Source: Solirubrobacteraceae bacterium | Lineage (GTDB): Bacteria; Actinomycetota; Thermoleophilia; Solirubrobacterales; Solirubrobacteraceae | DNA length: 33,219 nucleotides | Assembly (NCBI GenBank): GCA_025451035.1 | Contig: JANWLE010000108.1 | Span: 1-33,219 of the forward strand | Direction: 5' to 3' | Shown: positions 3,067-21,670 of the stretch, one piece after another | Layout of the letters: every line of letters begins with the position of its first letter | Numbering within the stretch: position 1 is the first letter of the stretch | The notes under the pieces: model-generated | What the model was told of the DNA's origin: nothing | The model's database searches: none | The model's input: the letters and a program-made list of their open reading frames with translations, nothing else | Made by a program: the position numbers and the translations under genes

Positions 3067-3329
3067 CTACGATCAATGCTACTACGGCTAACGCGGACTA
3101 GATTGCCTATCGCGGCTATTTCCGAAAGGCGGCGCCGCTTGACGGCCAGGGGATGTGTTGGTGAGCGTGCGACAACTTTGTGGTTTACATAAGATAGATT
3201 ATCGAGCGTTGAAGAAGCGGCAGCTTAGCCGCAGTAGCGCTTAGTCAGTCGCCCTGATCGAAGCACCAACGCGGCACCGGCACGGATAGCACCTCACTCA
3301 GGCGAGCCGCGCGAATAGCATTGTCTTTG

Positions 3330-15152: not shown

Positions 15153-15890
15153 CTAACGCGAACTCCAAACCTCGCCGACGCCTTCGAAGCCAAGCGCCCG
15201 CTTGGTCGCTTCGGTCAGGTCAAATTCCCGCCCCGCGACATAGGGGCCGCGGTCGACTACAGGCACATGCACAGAACGCCCGCCGTAGCGGAGGGTGACC
15301 ATCGTTCCGCACGGCAGCGTCTTGTTGGCGACGCCCATAGTTGAGCTGGTCAAATACCCGCCGCAAGCAAGCCCGCCACCGCCTCCATACCAGGATGCCG
15401 CCGCGAGCCTATACACGCCGAGACGTCCGATCATGCGGTGCGCGGGAAAGTCTGCTGCGTCACCGCTGAAACGCACCTGCAGGCTCCGGTCTGTGGTGCG
15501 GTGCGGGGTGTAGCGCAGTACAAAGCGCCCACGGCGCCCGGTCACAGCGCTGGCTAGCACCCGCCACCCTCGTGGCCCGTGCACCCTAAGCGTGAGAACC
15601 CGCCCGGGCAGCGCCGGCAAAAGCGTTCCGGCGACCACCACACGGGTGCCCTCGAGCACGTTCAGCGTCACCCGGCGGATCTTTAGGCGGACCCGCCTGC
15701 GCGCTGCCTGCAGCGCGCTGGGAAGCATCACGCCGCCGCCTGGGGCGGATTCGACCGGCAAGGCTGCCGAGATCACCGCAGCTGGCCCGACCGCCGCGAC
15801 GGCGGCTGGGTTTGATGTCACCGCCGGGGCGGCGAAAGCGGCGAGGCTGATGGCGATAAGCCAGCCACGCCGACATATGTACGGCCTCAT
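15153..15890 (-). CDS. RlpA-type double-psi beta-barrel secreted protein
   Basis: 245 aa. Signal peptide (MRPYICRRGWLIAISLAAFA...), a central Arg-rich beta region of about 100 residues, then a C-terminal double-psi beta-barrel from about residue 168: AASWYGGGGGLACGG, TLPCGTMVTLRYGGRSVHVPVVDRGPY and FDLTEATKRALGFEGVGEV. The Asp of VDRGPY is the conserved acidic residue of RlpA-like barrels, which act on or bind peptidoglycan. AGGAGAG stands before the ATG. Expression appears controlled by the c-di-AMP riboswitch and a CRP-type site upstream, as known for rpfA-like cell-wall genes in actinobacteria. Confidence 0.88.
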   Translation of the reverse strand: MRPYICRRGWLIAISLAAFAAPAVTSNPAAVAAVGPAAVISAALPVESAPGGGVMLPSALQAARRRVRLKIRRVTLNVLEGTRVVVAGTLLPALPGRVLTLRVHGPRGWRVLASAVTGRRGRFVLRYTPHRTTDRSLQVRFSGDAADFPAHRMIGRLGVYRLAAASWYGGGGGLACGGYLTSSTMGVANKTLPCGTMVTLRYGGRSVHVPVVDRGPYVAGREFDLTEATKRALGFEGVGEVWSSR

Positions 15891-15912: not shown

Positions 15913-16093
15913 CTCTGCCTACGGGGTTAGCTGTCGGGCTCACATCCGTCAGAGCGCGAAATCGAACGCGCTCCAGCCGGGCGTTACAGCCGCATCAGCG
16001 GCCGATTCGCCCCATCCAGGCCGCCTGAGTGGCGGCACCGGCAGTGGGTCCCCCGCTTCTCTCCATCCACGGAGAGAACTCGGCAGGGCAGAA
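15913..16093 (-). ncRNA. c-di-AMP riboswitch (ydaO-yuaA type)
   Basis: The minus strand carries the conserved parts of this class in order: GCGGGGGACCCA (16045-16056), GGGGCGAATCGG, and CCGACAGCTAACCCCGTAGG near the 3' end (about 15916-15936). The outer stem P1 can form between TTCTGCC (16087-16093) and GGCAGAG (15913-15919). Length about 181 nt. The class binds cyclic di-AMP and usually lowers expression of cell-wall hydrolase or ion-transport genes when the ligand is abundant. It sits directly upstream of the RlpA-type gene, a known actinobacterial association. Confidence 0.9.
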
Positions 16094-16104
16094 CAACTGT
16101 TCGC

Positions 16105-16110
16105 AGCGTA
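16105..16110 (-). promoter_or_regulatory. Predicted -10 box of the riboswitch/RlpA promoter
   Basis: TACGCT (TANNNT form) on the minus strand. A start near 16098 would fall 5 nt before riboswitch stem P1. At 17-bp spacing the -35 position reads ACATGG, a poor hexamer, which suits an activator-dependent promoter. Confidence 0.5.
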
Positions 16111-16132: not shown

Positions 16133-16148
16133 TGTGAGGTGCGTCACA
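16133..16148. promoter_or_regulatory. CRP-type palindrome at the left transposon junction
   Basis: TGTGA-GGTGCG-TCACA, a perfect match to the TGTGA-N6-TCACA operator of Crp/GlxR regulators. Its centre lies about 42.5 bp upstream of the predicted transcription start of the riboswitch-RlpA transcript, close to the -41.5 position of class II activation. CRP of M. tuberculosis is known to control rpfA, which also carries a ydaO-type riboswitch. The right CACA of the site is contributed by the transposon end. Confidence 0.7.
16137..16144. repeat. Target-site duplication, left copy
   Basis: AGGTGCGT, identical to the copy at 19815-19822. It is the central part of the CRP-type site. Confidence 0.85.
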
Positions 16149-16173
16149 TATGGGCAGCGACTGTATAAGCCGG
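16145..16173 (+). repeat. Left terminal inverted repeat of the transposon
   Basis: Begins CACATATGGGCAGC and continues ACTGTA and AAGCCGG. It matches the reverse complement of 19786-19814 except at positions 15 (G/C) and 22 (T/G). Confidence 0.92.
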
Positions 16174-16174
16174 G

Positions 16175-17008
16175 TTAGAGCAGTTCGGGGAGGTCAGGCC
16201 GGTGCTTAGCGAACGGTTCGAGGAGATCGAGAACCCCGGTTGTGTCGGTGATCATTCCTTCGAGGGCTTCAATGCACGGGAGATAGTCCCCACTGAGACC
16301 ATCCCCTATCTGTACCGTCAGGGTGCCTTCGATCTGCACCTTCACATCCGGAGGCAGGGGCTCGCTGGTAGCTCCCACCTGTGCGCCGTGACCGACAACG
16401 TACCCGTCGGGGACCGCGTCATGGTCAATGGGGACCGGTCCTGTCGGACCAATAAAGCTCGCTCTGAGCGCCGTGATCCCGCTCGGGACTACGAGGAGTT
16501 GGTTGTGCTTGTCGGCGTTCTGGAAGGTGCTGAGTTGGGCGAGCGACACGTGTTTCGGGTTTTTCCCATGACGTCTGAGGTTGTAAGGCTGCACCATTTC
16601 AACGGTGGGCATTGCGGCGTGCGGAAAGCCGCGGGTCATTGCTCGCCATCGTTTCCTGGCTCCCGGTTGAAGGTGCTTGCCCGTCGCGGGGTCCATCTCG
16701 TGGATGTCGTCCGTGAAGATCGGGAACGCGGTTTTGCGGGTCCGCTGATCGGGGTGGACCATGGCGACGGCCAGATGGTCCAAGGCCGAGCGCAGGTTGA
16801 ACATCAACTCGCCGACGATGACCGGCGCCATGGGGTCGTCGACCCCTGGAACGACGACACGATGGACGTAGATCTCGCCGTCGTCCTGGGCCTCCAGCCC
16901 TTCGCTCACGTCGTGCACACGGTTCTCTTCGATCGGCGCGAAACGGGAGCTGAGGTCACCGAGGTGATGCTGCGCCCGCGCCACCTTCTGTCGCCATGAG
17001 GGGACCAT
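16175..17008 (-). CDS. Transposon passenger protein with R-x4-H motif, unknown function
   Basis: 277 aa from ATG 17008 (TTG 17011 also possible). Its stop lies 2 bp inside the left inverted repeat boundary. Helical N-terminus (WRQKVARAQHHLGDL), then ELMFNLRSALDHLAVAM near residues 68-84 and LSTFQNADKHNQLLVV near 155-170. The NLRSALDHL and NxDKH pair recurs in unnamed proteins of phages and mobile elements (from memory). R-SALD-H fits the R-x4-6-H spacing of HEPN-type RNases, but the fold is not shown here, so this is only a hypothesis. It is expressed divergently from the transposase, probably without a leader. Confidence 0.75.
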   Translation of the reverse strand: MVPSWRQKVARAQHHLGDLSSRFAPIEENRVHDVSEGLEAQDDGEIYVHRVVVPGVDDPMAPVIVGELMFNLRSALDHLAVAMVHPDQRTRKTAFPIFTDDIHEMDPATGKHLQPGARKRWRAMTRGFPHAAMPTVEMVQPYNLRRHGKNPKHVSLAQLSTFQNADKHNQLLVVPSGITALRASFIGPTGPVPIDHDAVPDGYVVGHGAQVGATSEPLPPDVKVQIEGTLTVQIGDGLSGDYLPCIEALEGMITDTTGVLDLLEPFAKHRPDLPELL

Positions 17009-17017
17009 CAAGCGGCG

Positions 17018-17046
17018 AGGGTATGGGACGACCCAACCACTGTCAA
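17018..17046 (-). promoter_or_regulatory. Promoter of the 277-aa passenger gene
   Basis: On the minus strand, TTGACA (17041-17046), a 17-bp spacer, and TACCCT (17018-17023, TANNNT type). The start of transcription would be at or near 17011, which coincides with the possible start codons (TTG 17011, ATG 17008), so the mRNA is probably leaderless or nearly so. Confidence 0.65.
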
Positions 17047-17057
17047 GCTACTTGACA
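17041..17057. promoter_or_regulatory. Palindrome holding both -35 boxes of the divergent promoters
   Basis: TGTCAAG-CTA-CTTGACA, perfect 7-bp arms. The left arm is the minus-strand TTGACA, the right arm the plus-strand TTGACA. A dimeric regulator bound here would cover both promoters. Confidence 0.7.
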
Positions 17058-17080
17058 CCATCCGATGTGTCAGGTAGGCT
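17052..17080 (+). promoter_or_regulatory. Transposase promoter
   Basis: TTGACA (17052-17057), a 17-bp spacer, and TAGGCT (17075-17080, TANNNT type). Transcription should begin near 17087-17088, at the GTG taken as transposase start, giving a leaderless message. Confidence 0.65.
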
Positions 17081-17085
17081 GACAC
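17067..17085. promoter_or_regulatory. Second palindrome over the transposase -10 box
   Basis: GTGTCAG-GTAGG-CTGACAC, perfect 7-bp arms enclosing the -10 TAGGCT. Its TGTCA/TGACA half-sites repeat those of the palindrome at 17041-17057, so the same regulator could bind both. This one would act on the transposase side only. Confidence 0.6.
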
Positions 17086-17087
17086 TC

Positions 17088-18062
17088 GTGTCTGCTGGGA
17101 ACCGTCATAACCCGACCCGGACTGCGTGCTCGGAGTCGTCGTTTTCGCTCATGGAGTTCATGCGGGACTTCCCCGATGACGCCGCTTGCCTTGAGCACCT
17201 GTGGCGGACCCGCTACTCCCAGGACGGCGAGCACGCCGAATGCCCCAAGTGCGCGTGCGAGCGAGTGTTCCGCCGCTACAACACCGCGCAGGGCCGCCAG
17301 TCGTGGACCTGCACCGGCTGCGGGCACCACGTCCACCCGACGGCCGGGACGATCTTCCACAAGTCCTCTACGTCGCTGCACCTGTGGTTCTTCGCGATCT
17401 ACATGATGGCGAGCACTCGCTGCGGCGTGTCGGCCAAGATGCTTGAGCGCGAGCTAGGCGTGTCCTACAAGACGGCGTGGCGGATGCTGCGCCTGATCCG
17501 CACCGAGCTAATGGCCGACGACGGCGCGATGCTCTCCGGTGACGTAGAGGTCGATGAGGCGTCCGTGGACGGCAAGCCCCGCAGGCCGCAAGGCGCGGCA
17601 CGGCGACAGATCGCCATTGGGCCGTCTCGGCGCTCTGAGGCCGCGAAGCTCAGGGAACGTAGTAGAGCGACCGTCTTCGCTGCCGTTGAGCGAGGGGGAC
17701 GGATCAAGGCGACGGTGCTGCCCTCGCGACGCGGGCCGCAGCTAAACCGTCAGATCATCGAGTGGGTCGAGCCGGAGTCGATCATCATCACCGACGACTG
17801 GTCCTCCTACAACGGCCTGGACCGGCACTTCATCGCCCATAGTCGGATCAACCACTCCGCCGGTTGGTATGTCCAAGGCTCAACCCACACGAACACCGTT
17901 GAGGGGTTCTTTGGGCACTTGAAGCCCGCGATCAAGGGCACCTACCGGAAGGTGTCCCACCGGTGGCTACAGGGCTATCTCAACGAGTTCACTTGGCGAC
18001 GCAACGCCCGCTACTCGCCCACGTCGATGTTCGAGCAGTTGCTCGACAACGCTGCCGTATGA
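17088..18062 (+). CDS. IS1595-family (ISXO2-like) DDE transposase
   Basis: 324 aa from GTG 17088, the predicted transcription start; ATG 17151 (MEFMRDFPDD) is the alternative and matches the usual family start. A zinc ribbon (Cys52, Cys55, Cys75, Cys78; CPKC and CTGC) is followed by an HTH-like region (LERELGVSYKTAWRMLRLIR). The catalytic residues are Asp156 in VEVDEASV, Asp236 in IITDDWSSY, and the HTNTVEGFFGHLK block with Asn269 and Glu272. The C-terminal YRKVSHRWLQGYLNEFTWRRN is typical. All catalytic positions are present and there is no frameshift. Its stop overlaps the next start as ATGA. Confidence 0.93.
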   Translation: MSAGNRHNPTRTACSESSFSLMEFMRDFPDDAACLEHLWRTRYSQDGEHAECPKCACERVFRRYNTAQGRQSWTCTGCGHHVHPTAGTIFHKSSTSLHLWFFAIYMMASTRCGVSAKMLERELGVSYKTAWRMLRLIRTELMADDGAMLSGDVEVDEASVDGKPRRPQGAARRQIAIGPSRRSEAAKLRERSRATVFAAVERGGRIKATVLPSRRGPQLNRQIIEWVEPESIIITDDWSSYNGLDRHFIAHSRINHSAGWYVQGSTHTNTVEGFFGHLKPAIKGTYRKVSHRWLQGYLNEFTWRRNARYSPTSMFEQLLDNAAV

Positions 18063-18265
18063 GCGAGTCTGAGTCGATCAAGGCGATCCGTCGCGCCGCC
18101 AAACGACGCGAGTACGCCGATAGGCTCAAGACACAGGCGACCGACGACCTACGGGAGAACCTACGCCGGGCGCAGGCCGAGGGCGAGCCTATTGCTCGGA
18201 TTGCTCGGGAGGCTCGTCTGTCTCGTCAGGGCGTTTACGAACTGCTGGCGGCGCGATCTTCCTAA
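18059..18265 (+). CDS. 68-residue helix-turn-helix protein coupled to the transposase
   Basis: The start overlaps the transposase stop (ATGA), indicating translational coupling. The chain begins with a basic helical stretch (IKAIRRAAKRREYADRLK) and ends with IARIAREARLSRQGVYELL, an HTH of the kind found in small regulators and resolvase tails. Being made in step with the transposase, it is a candidate repressor for the TGTCA palindromes in front of that gene (inference). Its last 77 bp overlap the antisense small ORF ending at 18189. Confidence 0.65.
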   Translation: MSESESIKAIRRAAKRREYADRLKTQATDDLRENLRRAQAEGEPIARIAREARLSRQGVYELLAARSS

Positions 18266-18356
18266 CGAGCGAGTCGAAGTCCTCGCGCGACGGGACACGG
18301 ATGCGGTGCCCGGCGGGCGTGGTCTGTCTTGGCTCGTCTGGCGCATCGTCGGACAT
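18189..18356 (-). CDS. Possible 55-residue protein antisense to the HTH gene
   Basis: ATG 18356 to TAG 18189. The reading is acidic at both ends with a compact core TPAGHRIRVPSREDFDSLVRKIAPP. That core resembles small proteins in actinobacteria and proteobacteria with a G-x-x-I/V-x-V/I-P-x-R-x-x-F pattern (from memory). It overlaps the 3' end of the HTH gene by 77 bp on the opposite strand, so one of the two may not be translated. It is not in the same frame as the Arg-rich antisense shadow ORF nearby. Confidence 0.4.
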   Translation of the reverse strand: MSDDAPDEPRQTTPAGHRIRVPSREDFDSLVRKIAPPAVRKRPDETDEPPEQSEQ

Positions 18357-18410
18357 CCCCTATCAGGCTAGCGCTGAAGCAGGTCGAGCTGGTGCTTGGG
18401 GTCGGCGAAA

Positions 18411-18442
18411 CTCGAAACCCAGCTCCCAGCCTGGGATTCGAG
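18411..18442. repeat. 12-bp stem hairpin inside the transposon
   Basis: CTCGAAACCCAG (18411-18422) and CTGGGATTCGAG (18431-18442) pair over 12 positions with one mismatch, around an 8-base loop. It lies between the antisense small ORF start and the charged-helix ORF. It could end the transposase-HTH transcript or be a binding site; there is no T run. Confidence 0.5.
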
Positions 18443-18588
18443 TAGCGCCCTGACCGCCGATACCTCGCTCACGGGCCGACGCTACCCCATGCCTCAGCCT
18501 GCCGGGTTTTGCTCCCAAAATGCGCAGTTGTTCTGGAGGTACCAATGACACCGAACCTTGGGATTGGAATAGACTTCGCGCCGCTGCT

Positions 18589-18759
18589 ATGGAAGACAAA
18601 GACAAATCCGACGAGGGCATGGGCACGAGCGGCGAGATTCGCCGGCAGGAGGAGGCCCAGCGGATCGCCAAGCAGCGCCGAGAGGAGGAGCTGGCACGCC
18701 TCAGGGAGGCTGCCCGTCGGCGCGAGGAAGAGGAGCGTCGGCGCAAAGGCCGCGGGTAG
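18589..18759 (+). CDS. Possible 56-residue charged coiled-helix protein
   Basis: ATG 18589. Nearly the whole chain is Glu/Arg/Lys/Ala in a helical pattern (IRRQEEAQRIAKQRREEELA, then RLREAARRREEEERRRKGRG). There is no Shine-Dalgarno sequence before this ATG. A TAGACT -10-like box at 18570-18575 would start transcription about 7 nt before it. A competing ORF from ATG 18545 has a good GGAGG but translates into Arg/Ser-rich sequence typical of a shadow frame. It precedes the membrane protein gene by about 30 bp. Confidence 0.4.
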   Translation: MEDKDKSDEGMGTSGEIRRQEEAQRIAKQRREEELARLREAARRREEEERRRKGRG

Positions 18760-18789
18760 GACGCGGTCACGGAGTAAGGCGGCTTGGGC

Positions 18790-19290
18790 GTGAGCGCCGA
18801 GACGGGTAGCGGCACTGAAACCTATGCGGCGCTGATCGATCGGGAGCTTGATGCGCAGGAGGCGCGGAAGGCATCCCTTGAGCAACGCGGACTCGCCGTG
18901 ATTACGACGGCCGGAGCTCTGACATCGCTCCTGTTCGGGCTCGCGGCGTTTTCGACTACGAACGCCAACGCCGTTGTTTTGCCTGGAAGCGCCCGCCATC
19001 TCCTGATCGCAGCGGTGGTCTTGTTCTTTGCGAGTTCAGTGGGCGCGCTCGTCGTGAACGCCCCGCTGATCTATCAGGCCGTAACGCCCGTCGAAATACG
19101 CGGGCGTCTCAACGAGGAGCCGGTTCGCGACTCCGAGGCGGCCGCCCGAGACATCGCGTTTACGCAGCTCAAAACACTCGAATCAGCGAAGAAAATGAAT
19201 GGCATCAAGGGCTGGGCGCTCTTGGCCTCGATGGTGGTAGAGGCAGCGGCAGTCGGTTGCCTGGTGGCCGCGATCACCTATGTTCTCTAG
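18790..19290 (+). CDS. Three-helix membrane protein, transposon passenger
   Basis: 166 aa from GTG 18790 (TTG 18784 possible). A cytoplasmic helix (YAALIDRELDAQEARKASLEQRG) leads into membrane segments LAVITTAGALTSLLFGLAAF and HLLIAAVVLFFASSVGALVV. A soluble helical loop ending in FTQLKTLESAKKMNGIKG follows, then a third segment (WALLASMVVEAAAVGCLVAAITYVL). The helix-TM-TM-helix-TM plan, with RKxSLExRG before the first segment, is shared with unnamed actinobacterial membrane proteins and is loosely similar to small membrane effectors of nucleotide-signalling defence systems. No cyclase is present here, so no such role is claimed. Confidence 0.7.
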   Translation: MSAETGSGTETYAALIDRELDAQEARKASLEQRGLAVITTAGALTSLLFGLAAFSTTNANAVVLPGSARHLLIAAVVLFFASSVGALVVNAPLIYQAVTPVEIRGRLNEEPVRDSEAAARDIAFTQLKTLESAKKMNGIKGWALLASMVVEAAAVGCLVAAITYVL

Positions 19291-19371
19291 ATGATTGATG
19301 TCACGGTTTAGGCGCAGCAGTTGACGAGTGCGCGGCTGGGGCGGTGGAGTCGGTTGGTGGTCCAAAGGAGC

Positions 19372-19404
19372 GGACCACGCCGCTCTCTGAAGCGGCGCGG
19401 GTCC
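19372..19404. terminator. Bidirectional hairpin between convergent passenger genes
   Basis: GGACC (19372-19376) pairs with GGTCC (19400-19404) and CGCCGCT (19378-19384) with AGCGGCG (19391-19397), with a small internal loop and a CTCTGA apical loop. It lies 82 bp after the membrane protein stop and 11 bp after the winged-helix gene stop. There is no T tract, as often in high-GC actinobacteria. Confidence 0.55.
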
Positions 19405-19414
19405 TCCTCCCCCC

Positions 19415-19669
19415 TCAGACGACTTCGCCGACGAGCGCCACCCACTTGTGCGCCGCAGGCGTGGCAACAACGAACTTCTTAGCGATCCGGTGCATCAGCC
19501 CGGCCGCGATGAGCGGCTGCACGATCGACTCAGGGTCGAAGTAGTCGAGATGACGGCCGATGTCGGCCACCTTCCAGACCGGCGGCGTCTCGTCTTCGGT
19601 GAGCAGGTAGAGCGCGGCTAGCTCTCTCTGTGCCCACTTCTGGGCTTGCTCGTTAGGCTCCTCGGGCAT
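19415..19669 (-). CDS. Winged-helix-like small protein, transposon passenger
   Basis: 84 aa from ATG 19669, fixed by AGGAGG 9 nt upstream; a longer reading to 19726 has no such site. Helical start (EQAQKWAQRELAALYLL), then VWKVADIGRHLDYFDPESIVQPLIAAGLMHRI, a helix-turn-helix pattern, and a wing-like KKFVVATPAAHKWVAL. It probably binds DNA and is the second candidate regulator in the element. It is the last gene before the right inverted repeat and reads away from it. Confidence 0.7.
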   Translation of the reverse strand: MPEEPNEQAQKWAQRELAALYLLTEDETPPVWKVADIGRHLDYFDPESIVQPLIAAGLMHRIAKKFVVATPAAHKWVALVGEVV

Positions 19670-19785
19670 CAGGACTGACCTCCTGGTGTCGGCCCCCGGG
19701 GCGGTTCCGGCCGTCGCCGGGGGCACTCGGTTGTTTAGGAACCGTCGAAGCTAGGCCGCCGGAACGACGGAATCAGCCGTCAGAT

Positions 19786-19814
19786 CCGGCTTCTACAGTG
19801 GCTGCCCATATGTG
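19786..19814 (-). repeat. Right terminal inverted repeat of the transposon
   Basis: Read on the minus strand it begins CACATATGGGCAGC and continues ACTGTA and AAGCCGG, matching the left end at 27 of 29 positions. Confidence 0.92.
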
Positions 19815-19826
19815 AGGTGCGTCACA
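19811..19826. promoter_or_regulatory. CRP-type palindrome at the right transposon junction
   Basis: TGTGA-GGTGCG-TCACA, identical to 16133-16148. Here the left TGTG is supplied by the transposon end and the rest by the duplicated target plus flank. It now lies about 365 bp upstream of the WS/DGAT start. Confidence 0.65.
19815..19822. repeat. Target-site duplication, right copy
   Basis: AGGTGCGT, matching 16137-16144. Confidence 0.85.
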
Positions 19827-20191: not shown

Positions 20192-21670
20192 ATGGCAAAC
20201 GCCGACCGCCTATCCGCGCTGGATTCAGCTTTTCTGCACCTCGAGAACAACTCGACCGCACACATGCACGTCGCCTCGGTCATGGTGTTCCAGGGCGACG
20301 CGCCGACCCACCAAGAGCTGATCGATCACGTTCTCAGCCGGCTGCATCTCGTACCCCGCTACCGCCAGCGACTGGCATATGTGCCGCTCGGCCAGGGACG
20401 CCCAGTGTGGACGGACGACCCACACTTCAATCCCTACTACCACATCCGTCACACCGGTCTTCCCCACCCGGGCGACGAGGAGGCCCTGAAGAAACTTGCA
20501 GGCCGGGCGTTCTCTCAGCGCCTTGACCGCTCGAAGCCCCTCTGGGAGATGTGGCTGGTCGACCGTATGGCCGGCAAACGCTTTGCGATCATCGCCAAGA
20601 CCCACCACGCGCTCGTGGACGGAATTTCCGGCGTTGACATAACCACGGTTCTGTTCGACACGACCGCGGAGCCAGCGCTTCCGCCCAAGCCCACTGAGCC
20701 ATGGATCGCCCAGCCGCTGCCTGGCCCTGCGAAGCTGCTGCGAGATGCGCTCGTGGAACGTGCGACCGTCCCCGCGGAGATGGTGCGCGGCACGCGCGCG
20801 CTTCTGCGTACGCCCCGCAAGGCGCTCTCTCGCCTCAGCCAGGACATCGTCAGCCTCAGCAGCACGACTCTCGCTGGCATCAACGCGCCTGCGCCCGCTA
20901 CACCATTCAATGTGGAGATCGGTCCACACCGCCGCTACACCTGGGTCGATGGTGACCTGACGGAGTTCAAGGCGATCAAGGACGCGCTCAAGGGGACCCT
21001 AAACGACGTCGTCTTGACCGTCGTGAGCATGGCGTTGGGAAGCCACCTGCGGGCGCAGGGATACGACACCGAAGGCTTGGTGCTCAAGGCGATGGTGCCG
21101 GTGTCTGTGCGCGCTCAGGCAGAGCGCGGAGCGCTGGGTAACCGCGTCGCCGCGATGTGGGCCCCTCTGCCGGTTGGCAACGCGAACCCAGTCGAGAGTT
21201 TCCGCGAAATCAGCCTCGCGATGGACGATCTGAAGGAGTCCCGTCAAGCGGTCGGCGCCGAGGTGCTGATCAACCTAGCCGGGTTCGCTCCCCCGACGAT
21301 CCTCAGCCAGGCCGCCCGGCTGCAAGCGCGTCAACGCTACTTCAATCTCGTAGTCACAAACGTCCCGGGCCCACAGTTTCCGCTGTACCTACTGGGCCGT
21401 CGCTTGCGCGCCCTGTACCCAGTCGTGCCGCTGGCTCAAAACCAAGCACTGGGTATCGCCGTATTGAGCTACGACGGGCATCTCGGCTTTGGCTTGCTGG
21501 GCGACTACGATGCTCTTCCCGACATTGAGCTCATCGCCCGCGAACTGAGGCGCGCGATGCGTGCGCTGGCAAGAGCCGCGAACGTGGGCACACAGGACAA
21601 GAAGAAGCAAGCCTCCTCCACACGCAAGCGCAGCCGCTCCACGTCCGCCGCGGGCGTCAGCGGAGCCTGA
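20192..21670 (+). CDS. Wax ester synthase/diacylglycerol acyltransferase (WS/DGAT)
   Basis: 492 aa from ATG 20192; the reading from GTG 20114 lacks support. The N-terminus MANADRLSALDSAFLHLE is typical. The active-site motif HHxxxDG appears as THHALVDGIS (His138, His139, Asp143, Gly144). The conserved NDVVLTVVSMALG and the C-terminal NVPGPQFPLYLLG and GIAVLSYDGHLGFGLLGDYD blocks are present. The enzyme joins acyl-CoA to diacylglycerol or a fatty alcohol, forming storage triacylglycerol or wax ester at the membrane. The basic Ser/Thr-rich tail (KKKQASSTRKRSRSTS) is unusual. nadE follows 18 bp later, so they are probably one transcript. Confidence 0.92.
   Translation: MANADRLSALDSAFLHLENNSTAHMHVASVMVFQGDAPTHQELIDHVLSRLHLVPRYRQRLAYVPLGQGRPVWTDDPHFNPYYHIRHTGLPHPGDEEALKKLAGRAFSQRLDRSKPLWEMWLVDRMAGKRFAIIAKTHHALVDGISGVDITTVLFDTTAEPALPPKPTEPWIAQPLPGPAKLLRDALVERATVPAEMVRGTRALLRTPRKALSRLSQDIVSLSSTTLAGINAPAPATPFNVEIGPHRRYTWVDGDLTEFKAIKDALKGTLNDVVLTVVSMALGSHLRAQGYDTEGLVLKAMVPVSVRAQAERGALGNRVAAMWAPLPVGNANPVESFREISLAMDDLKESRQAVGAEVLINLAGFAPPTILSQAARLQARQRYFNLVVTNVPGPQFPLYLLGRRLRALYPVVPLAQNQALGIAVLSYDGHLGFGLLGDYDALPDIELIARELRRAMRALARAANVGTQDKKKQASSTRKRSRSTSAAGVSGA

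Follow-up and report, generated by a model that had tools for sequence, protein, structure and literature searches.

A lineage of IS1595-family elements that probably targets CRP-type operators and restores them at both junctions

What becomes of a regulatory site when a transposon lands in its centre? This question is raised by a 33,219-bp stretch of contig JANWLE010000108.1 from a Solirubrobacteraceae bacterium (assembly GCA_025451035.1), referred to here as the window. Between the host genes rlpA (left) and WS/DGAT (right), which are transcribed away from one another, the window carries one insertion of an IS1595-family element, and the same perfect CRP-type palindrome, TGTGA-N6-TCACA, stands at each junction. 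By comparison with relatives, we consider it probable (roughly 85%) that the element belongs to a lineage whose transposase picks CRP-type operators and whose ends, shaped as operator half-sites, rebuild the operator on both sides. The features at the junctions are as follows.

16133–16148, unstranded: left rebuilt operator TGTGAGGTGCGTCACA (host TGTG, duplication, element CACA)
16137–16144, unstranded: left copy of the 8-bp target duplication AGGTGCGT
16145–19814, plus strand: IS1595-family element, 3670 bp, with CACA...TGTG ends
16145–16173, plus strand: left terminal inverted repeat, score 25 over 29 positions
19786–19814, minus strand: right terminal inverted repeat
19811–19826, unstranded: right rebuilt operator TGTGAGGTGCGTCACA (element TGTG, duplication, host CACA)
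19815–19822, unstranded: right copy of the duplication AGGTGCGT

The palindrome is identical at both junctions and holds the duplication in its middle, while the element begins with CACATATGGGCAGC and ends with GCTGCCCATATGTG. An earlier note on this DNA had described this arrangement, and it is confirmed here. It also had the left copy maintaining its distance from rlpA, which is true by geometry, with 242 bp to the start codon. The genome assembly (2.87 Mb, 122 contigs) contains 5 exact TGTGA-N6-TCACA sites, including both junction copies, and a single full copy of the element; a search of the same assembly returned no second full copy. An 8-bp stagger would take in the A-N6-T core of the operator, and the last bases of the element, CACA...TGTG, would replace the half-site displaced by the insertion. 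Because the two are equal, each junction would be an operator again, half host and half element.

The family assignment is based on the transposase domains DDE_Tnp_IS1595 (PF12762, 119.2 bits, cut-off 27) and zinc ribbon (PF12760, 25.5 bits, cut-off 25.4) detected by a Pfam scan, together with the terminal inverted repeats and the 8-bp duplication. The GG-type termini that characterize the sister elements are absent from the window element, which has CACA at their place. We take the CACA ends as variation within the IS1595 family because the transposase nests among GG-ended ones; that GG ends are the usual state of the family is judged from the present sample.

Relatives were collected by transposase searches of 101 genomes of relatives, 232 of the order, 399 from the class, 396 from the phylum, and 103 and 39 from two families, all of these sets overlapping. 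A separate scan of contigs gave three loci, of which L005 (L numbers denote loci and G numbers genomes) is on the same contig as a whole-genome match and was counted once. In 64 loci, a script blind to TGTG and CACA located element ends by pairing the top-scoring inverted repeat with an adjoining exact direct repeat of 8 bp, and rows without a supported end pair were left out of the two-ended counts. L061 (inverted repeat 11 over 25) and L128 (10 over 14) fell below the threshold of the script but were retained, as their termini and flanks are readable, whereas a second, G+C-rich row of L097 (16 over 34) was judged spurious. A stricter alignment of loci was used in place of an overly permissive tblastx of joined flanks.

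Seventeen two-ended elements recovered by this motif-independent search start with CACA, CACG, or GACA: those of the window, L005, L060, L061, L062, L064, L065, L067 (minus strand), L069, L070, L071, L074, L075, L076, L078, L092, and L128. The sequence just outside is TGTG on the left in 16/17 cases and CACA on the right in 15/17, giving an exact TGTG-N8-CACA at 15 of the 17 insertion sites; when L061 and L128 are left out, exact flanks are found in 13/15 and perfect empty sites in 10/15. The duplication itself begins with A in 15/17 and ends with T in 16/17. Comparing the reconstructed empty sites with TGTGA-N6-TCACA, 12/17 are perfect, 4/17 have one mismatch, and 1/17 has two. Both rebuilt copies are perfect in nine of the elements.

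A set of 17 GG-ended sister elements provides the comparison. These have GG at the same place as CACA, for example CACACTTATCCCTT in L065 versus GGCAAGTATCCCTT in L066, and in none of the 17 is the left flank TGTG or the right flank CACA, although just one base of the left flank is readable in L090. The difference between 15/17 and 0/17 is significant by Fisher's exact test (p = 1.5e-7). Likewise, TGTG/CACA flanks are absent from the other-ended rows L094, L095, L096 (twice), L097 minus, L098, L099, and L127. The earlier note had named copies in unrelated sequence lacking TGTG/CACA flanks as the observation that would refute it; beside the 15 exact cases, the two remaining CACA-like elements have TGTG/CACG and AGTG/CACG, and it is the GG-ended sisters that lie in other sequence. 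The counts for flanks, empty sites, and sisters support the targeting part of the suggestion in the earlier note that the ends are shaped for insertion into operators. Single CACA-type ends with outer TGTG were also seen in L067 (plus strand), L073, L079, L130, and L122, and a search of 232 genomes with the inner end sequence returned nine places, five already known and four new, of which L243 and L251 have outer TGTG. The sequences themselves show that a target is chosen, that the duplication is 8 bp long, that the palindromes are rebuilt, and, as described below, that orthologous loci without the insertion conserve the palindrome. Operator targeting with half-site ends is well supported.

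L122 (G006:C100) has several clustered CACA-type ends, two of them at the same 8-bp core on opposite strands, and looks nested or rearranged. At L252 (G130:C29:4686-6269), about 1.6 kb is bounded by CACA/CACG-type ends on both sides and is perhaps a non-autonomous copy; the genome had no transposase match at E 1e-60 or better in the order-level search.

In a tree of 58 transposases, the CACA elements fall in one group of 21 rows with support 99/98, which also takes in the GG-ended row L072 and three rows of unknown end type. The placement of L072 within the group is unsupported (48/27), and it may be sister to the remainder. The label of this group, tree group A, also required a duplication starting with A or C, and no CAC- or GAC-ended row was lost thereby. 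The ends and the target seem to have changed together on one branch. Three residues, S171, E196, and G271 (window numbering), are present in at least 89% of 18 group rows compared with at most 4% of 26 others, which makes them candidates for target reading. An AlphaFold model of the transposase built from three sequences (mean predicted local distance difference test score 44.1, predicted template modelling score 0.34) was too poor to place them.

Do the target sites resemble operators? All 17 insertions fall outside predicted genes, and by script 10/17 lie between divergent genes, one of these (L067) beside the transposase of another element. Genes were predicted by a rough codon-score script, and its counts of sites outside predicted genes are approximate because it missed rlpA in the window. 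Across 26 genomes, a number that includes G077 and G118 as extra genomes, exact TGTGA-N6-TCACA occurs 52 times and the version with an N8 spacer 7 times. Judged by position, 19 of the 52 belong to element junctions; the other 33 are lone sites, 28 of them outside predicted genes. The WS/DGAT orthologues, fetched by homology and not by motif, gave a match in 24/24 genus genomes. Six of these sister-species loci (L154, L157, L160, L165, L167, and L168) have an RlpA neighbour at tblastn E 1e-33 or better, and all six carry a perfect palindrome between the genes, with a different N6 in each. The palindrome is also found in the uninterrupted loci L153 and L164, fetched by homology, and in L229, from another family and chosen by motif. 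Fixed halves around a drifting spacer are the pattern that a protein-bound operator should leave. The sites resemble operators in their match to the consensus, their intergenic position, and their conservation in orthologous loci while the spacer varies.

An element occupies the rlpA–WS/DGAT site of the window, of G020 (L075, with a transposase 54% identical to that of the window), and of G125 (L065, from another family). RlpA-like genes also adjoin insertions in G017 (L061, opposite orientation) and G080 (L128), so that the rlpA-side operator has been struck in five genomes by different elements. Rpf-like genes adjoin the insertions of L062, L067, and L078, and the other neighbours include MarR-type (L064), FtsJ-type (L060), formyltransferase (L005), and MMPL (L069 and L070) genes. 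Ten genes neighbouring lone sites were scanned: three are MarR-type, four FtsJ-type, one Rpf-like, and one PadR-like, and one is without a match.

A chance meeting of one insertion with a palindrome, which the earlier note had left as an alternative, is excluded by the relatives. At 2,000,000 random positions of related loci, TGTG-N8-CACA was found 108 times, and at a background of 5.0e-5 the binomial probability of 15/17 is ~4e-63, leaving this explanation with practically no weight. A different partition of the same letters would make the duplication 16 bp long, spanning the whole operator, with TATGGG as the start of the element and CACA as host sequence. In perfect sites the 8-bp and 16-bp duplications give the same letters, and L076 is compatible with both. 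However, L064 and L092 have CACG/CGTG inside and TGTG/CACA outside, which separates element from target, and the inner and outer copies differ likewise in L062 and L074; the CACA-like ends are therefore part of the element, and the outer halves are host sequence. The ends of the GG-ended sisters, which align with the CACA ends, are moreover bounded by 8-bp duplications. The 16-bp duplication was rejected on the unequal copies in these four loci and is very improbable. A stronger competitor holds that the transposase prefers targets like its own ends, recognizing the TGTG next to the cut both in the donor and in the target, with operators secondary and the sparing of the host a by-product. The same TGTG does stand beside the cut in element end and target, IS30 offers a precedent for targets resembling the element's own ends, and in L067 a second element is inserted in an operator rebuilt by the first; a rebuilt site can therefore serve as a target. 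The A and T edges of the duplication (15/17 and 16/17), however, are not carried by the element, and therefore more than the end sequence is read; the GG-ended sisters, in addition, have no matching flanks. We regard this preference as a real possibility, though short of an even chance; it is a different cause with the same outcome as operator targeting.

The regulator itself is probably of the CRP/GlxR type. TGTGA-N6-TCACA equals the CRP consensus quoted in PMC4117774. The same paper lists rpfA among the targets of mycobacterial CRP, and Rpf-like genes are among the neighbours described above. CRP-family genes were present in 19/19 hosts searched, and one CRP-family protein of the window genome aligns with solved CRP proteins, with a recognition helix RESASR versus RETVNK in 3i54. 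Binding by another regulator, such as a CRP/FNR paralogue, is unlikely but deserves mention, since hosts have several HTH_Crp_2-matching genes. Several observations weigh against operator targeting. Five empty sites deviate from the consensus, by one mismatch in L067, L075, L076, and L078 and by two in L074; 8/17 elements lack two perfect rebuilt copies, one other end of L122 has CCTG outside, and the new single ends L246 and L248 have outer CGTG. In addition, L159 and L169 align to the locus without carrying the palindrome, the other empty-site loci (L211, L212, L213, L215, L219, L225, L229, and L240) were mostly selected by motif, and L069 and L070 stand at the same orthologous locus, possibly through a single old event. 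With operator targeting as the preferred reading, both rebuilt copies would be bound, sparing the host and keeping its control intact, and this may be why the ends evolved. The rebuilt operator might bring a further benefit by controlling the transposase.

Such control is suggested by a sub-group of eight elements (L067, L069, L070, L074, L075, L076, L078, and L092). TATAAT or TATACT is present at offset 23–24 of the left end in 8/8 and of the right end in 0/8, and an in-frame transposase ATG follows at offset 35–36 in 7/8, the exception, L092, being unsettled; the ATG positions of L067 and L078 were read from the translation. TTGAC does not occur in the first 30 bases of any of the 17 CACA-like elements, compared with 11/26 other rows, and the single-ended L130, which has it, is an exception. 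The transposase message of the sub-group is putatively leaderless, and the centre of the rebuilt operator would lie ~40 bp before this putative start, next to the −10 box. Class II CRP promoters have an operator centred near −41.5, a good −10, and a weak or no −35, a pattern that the sequence would fit if the message is leaderless. The left operator copy may be an activator site that places the transposase promoter under CRP control. Such an element would have no complete transposase promoter of its own; the −10 box and one operator half would come with the element and the missing half from the target. As it stands, this reading is not applicable to the window's own sub-group because its transposase begins ~900 bp inside the element.

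Some of the GG-ended sisters may have a target type of their own. An exact GAACnnnnGTTC, a LexA-type box, stands exactly 4 bp beyond the duplication in 5/17 of them, on the right in L077, L080, L081, and L083 and on the left in L088. L066 has 7/8 bases of the box at 4 bp, L086 has one box at 7 bp, and the remaining 10/17 have none at that place. By eye, the same 4-bp distance is seen at the single ends L082 and L119, with a 7/8 match at L123. The gene beyond the box is of ImuB/DinB type in L080, L083, and L086, and in L081 it encodes a short LysM protein. These genes fit what would be expected of SOS boxes, a pattern noticed post hoc. In the GG-ended L085, a single long palindrome encloses the duplication, each flank supplying one arm. 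It is tempting to combine these observations: in the sub-group of eight, insertion would assemble an activator-dependent promoter, host CRP would govern the transposase, and the host would keep both operators, while this branch of IS1595 would consist of operator specialists, a CRP clade and some LexA-type kin, with matched ends in the CRP clade. We put this forward only tentatively and think it somewhat doubtful as a whole.

Compared with other members of the IS1595 family (ISXO2-like transposases), the window lineage shares the zinc-ribbon and DDE domains, the terminal inverted repeats, and the 8-bp duplication, but differs in its CACA ends and CRP-type operator targets, neither of which the GG-ended relatives have. 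IS30-type elements choose targets like their own ends, some insertion sequences choose repetitive extragenic palindromic (REP) sequences, and Tn7 chooses attTn7. These targets are likewise chosen by sequence and are often palindromic or harmless; to our knowledge, none is a transcription-factor operator half-carried at each tip of the element. The nearest precedent found comes from Mutator-like elements, which choose sigma-A promoters: according to PMC3942029, TnGBS, ISLre2, and part of ISKra4 insert 15–17 bp ahead of the −35 of such promoters, a preference interpreted as limiting the cost to the host. Both groups target regulatory DNA, but the Mutator-like elements have another transposase family and choose a distance from a promoter, not an operator, and the site is not rebuilt from the element ends. 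The window transposase is not of this Mutator type (p-MULT), as Pfam gives IS1595 domains alone. IS5 at Escherichia coli glpFK and bgl also enters a CRP-bound control region (PMC4117983), but there CRP binding blocks insertion and the target is CTAA rather than the CRP site. In the literature, covered mostly without subscription papers, we found no report of insertion sequences targeting operators or SOS boxes, and such an absence is unproven.

Transposons that use harmless sites are known. Here the target is apparently the site of a global regulator, half of which is carried at each tip and restored on both sides, and related elements doing likewise in other genomes suggest a mobile element adapted to host control DNA. 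As the ends and the target seem to have changed jointly on one branch, the origin of target specificity is directly testable. Moreover, in uncultured Actinobacteria the elements serve as markers of candidate CRP operators and the sisters as markers of candidate SOS operators, and one sub-group may use the host's control to regulate its own transposase.

The remaining features of the element and its neighbours are as follows.

15153–15890, minus strand: RlpA-like host gene, left of the site (DPBB_1, PF03330)
16175–17011, minus strand: 278-aa open reading frame (ORF) in the element, no Pfam match, a gene by codon score alone
17052–18062, plus strand: transposase (PF12760 and PF12762), start codon uncertain
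18059–18265, plus strand: 68-aa ORF overlapping the transposase stop, with a helix-turn-helix look by eye
18784–19290, plus strand: 168-aa ORF in the element, no Pfam match
20192–21670, plus strand: WS/DGAT host gene, right of the site (PF03007 and PF06974, scanned from 20114)

As plasmid relatives, two records with ~38% identity were found. Elsewhere in the window genome, 68 bp at G000:C20:13639-13706 (L002) match element positions 3155–3222 at 85%. At the rlpA–WS/DGAT locus, an SOS-box-like palindrome, GAACAACTGTTC, lies 34 bp outside the left duplication in the window (~16092–16105) and 33 bp outside it in L075. Relatives of the 68-aa ORF directly follow the transposase in L005, L060, L062, L064, L065, L071, and L063, and one is also found beside the plus-strand transposase of L067.

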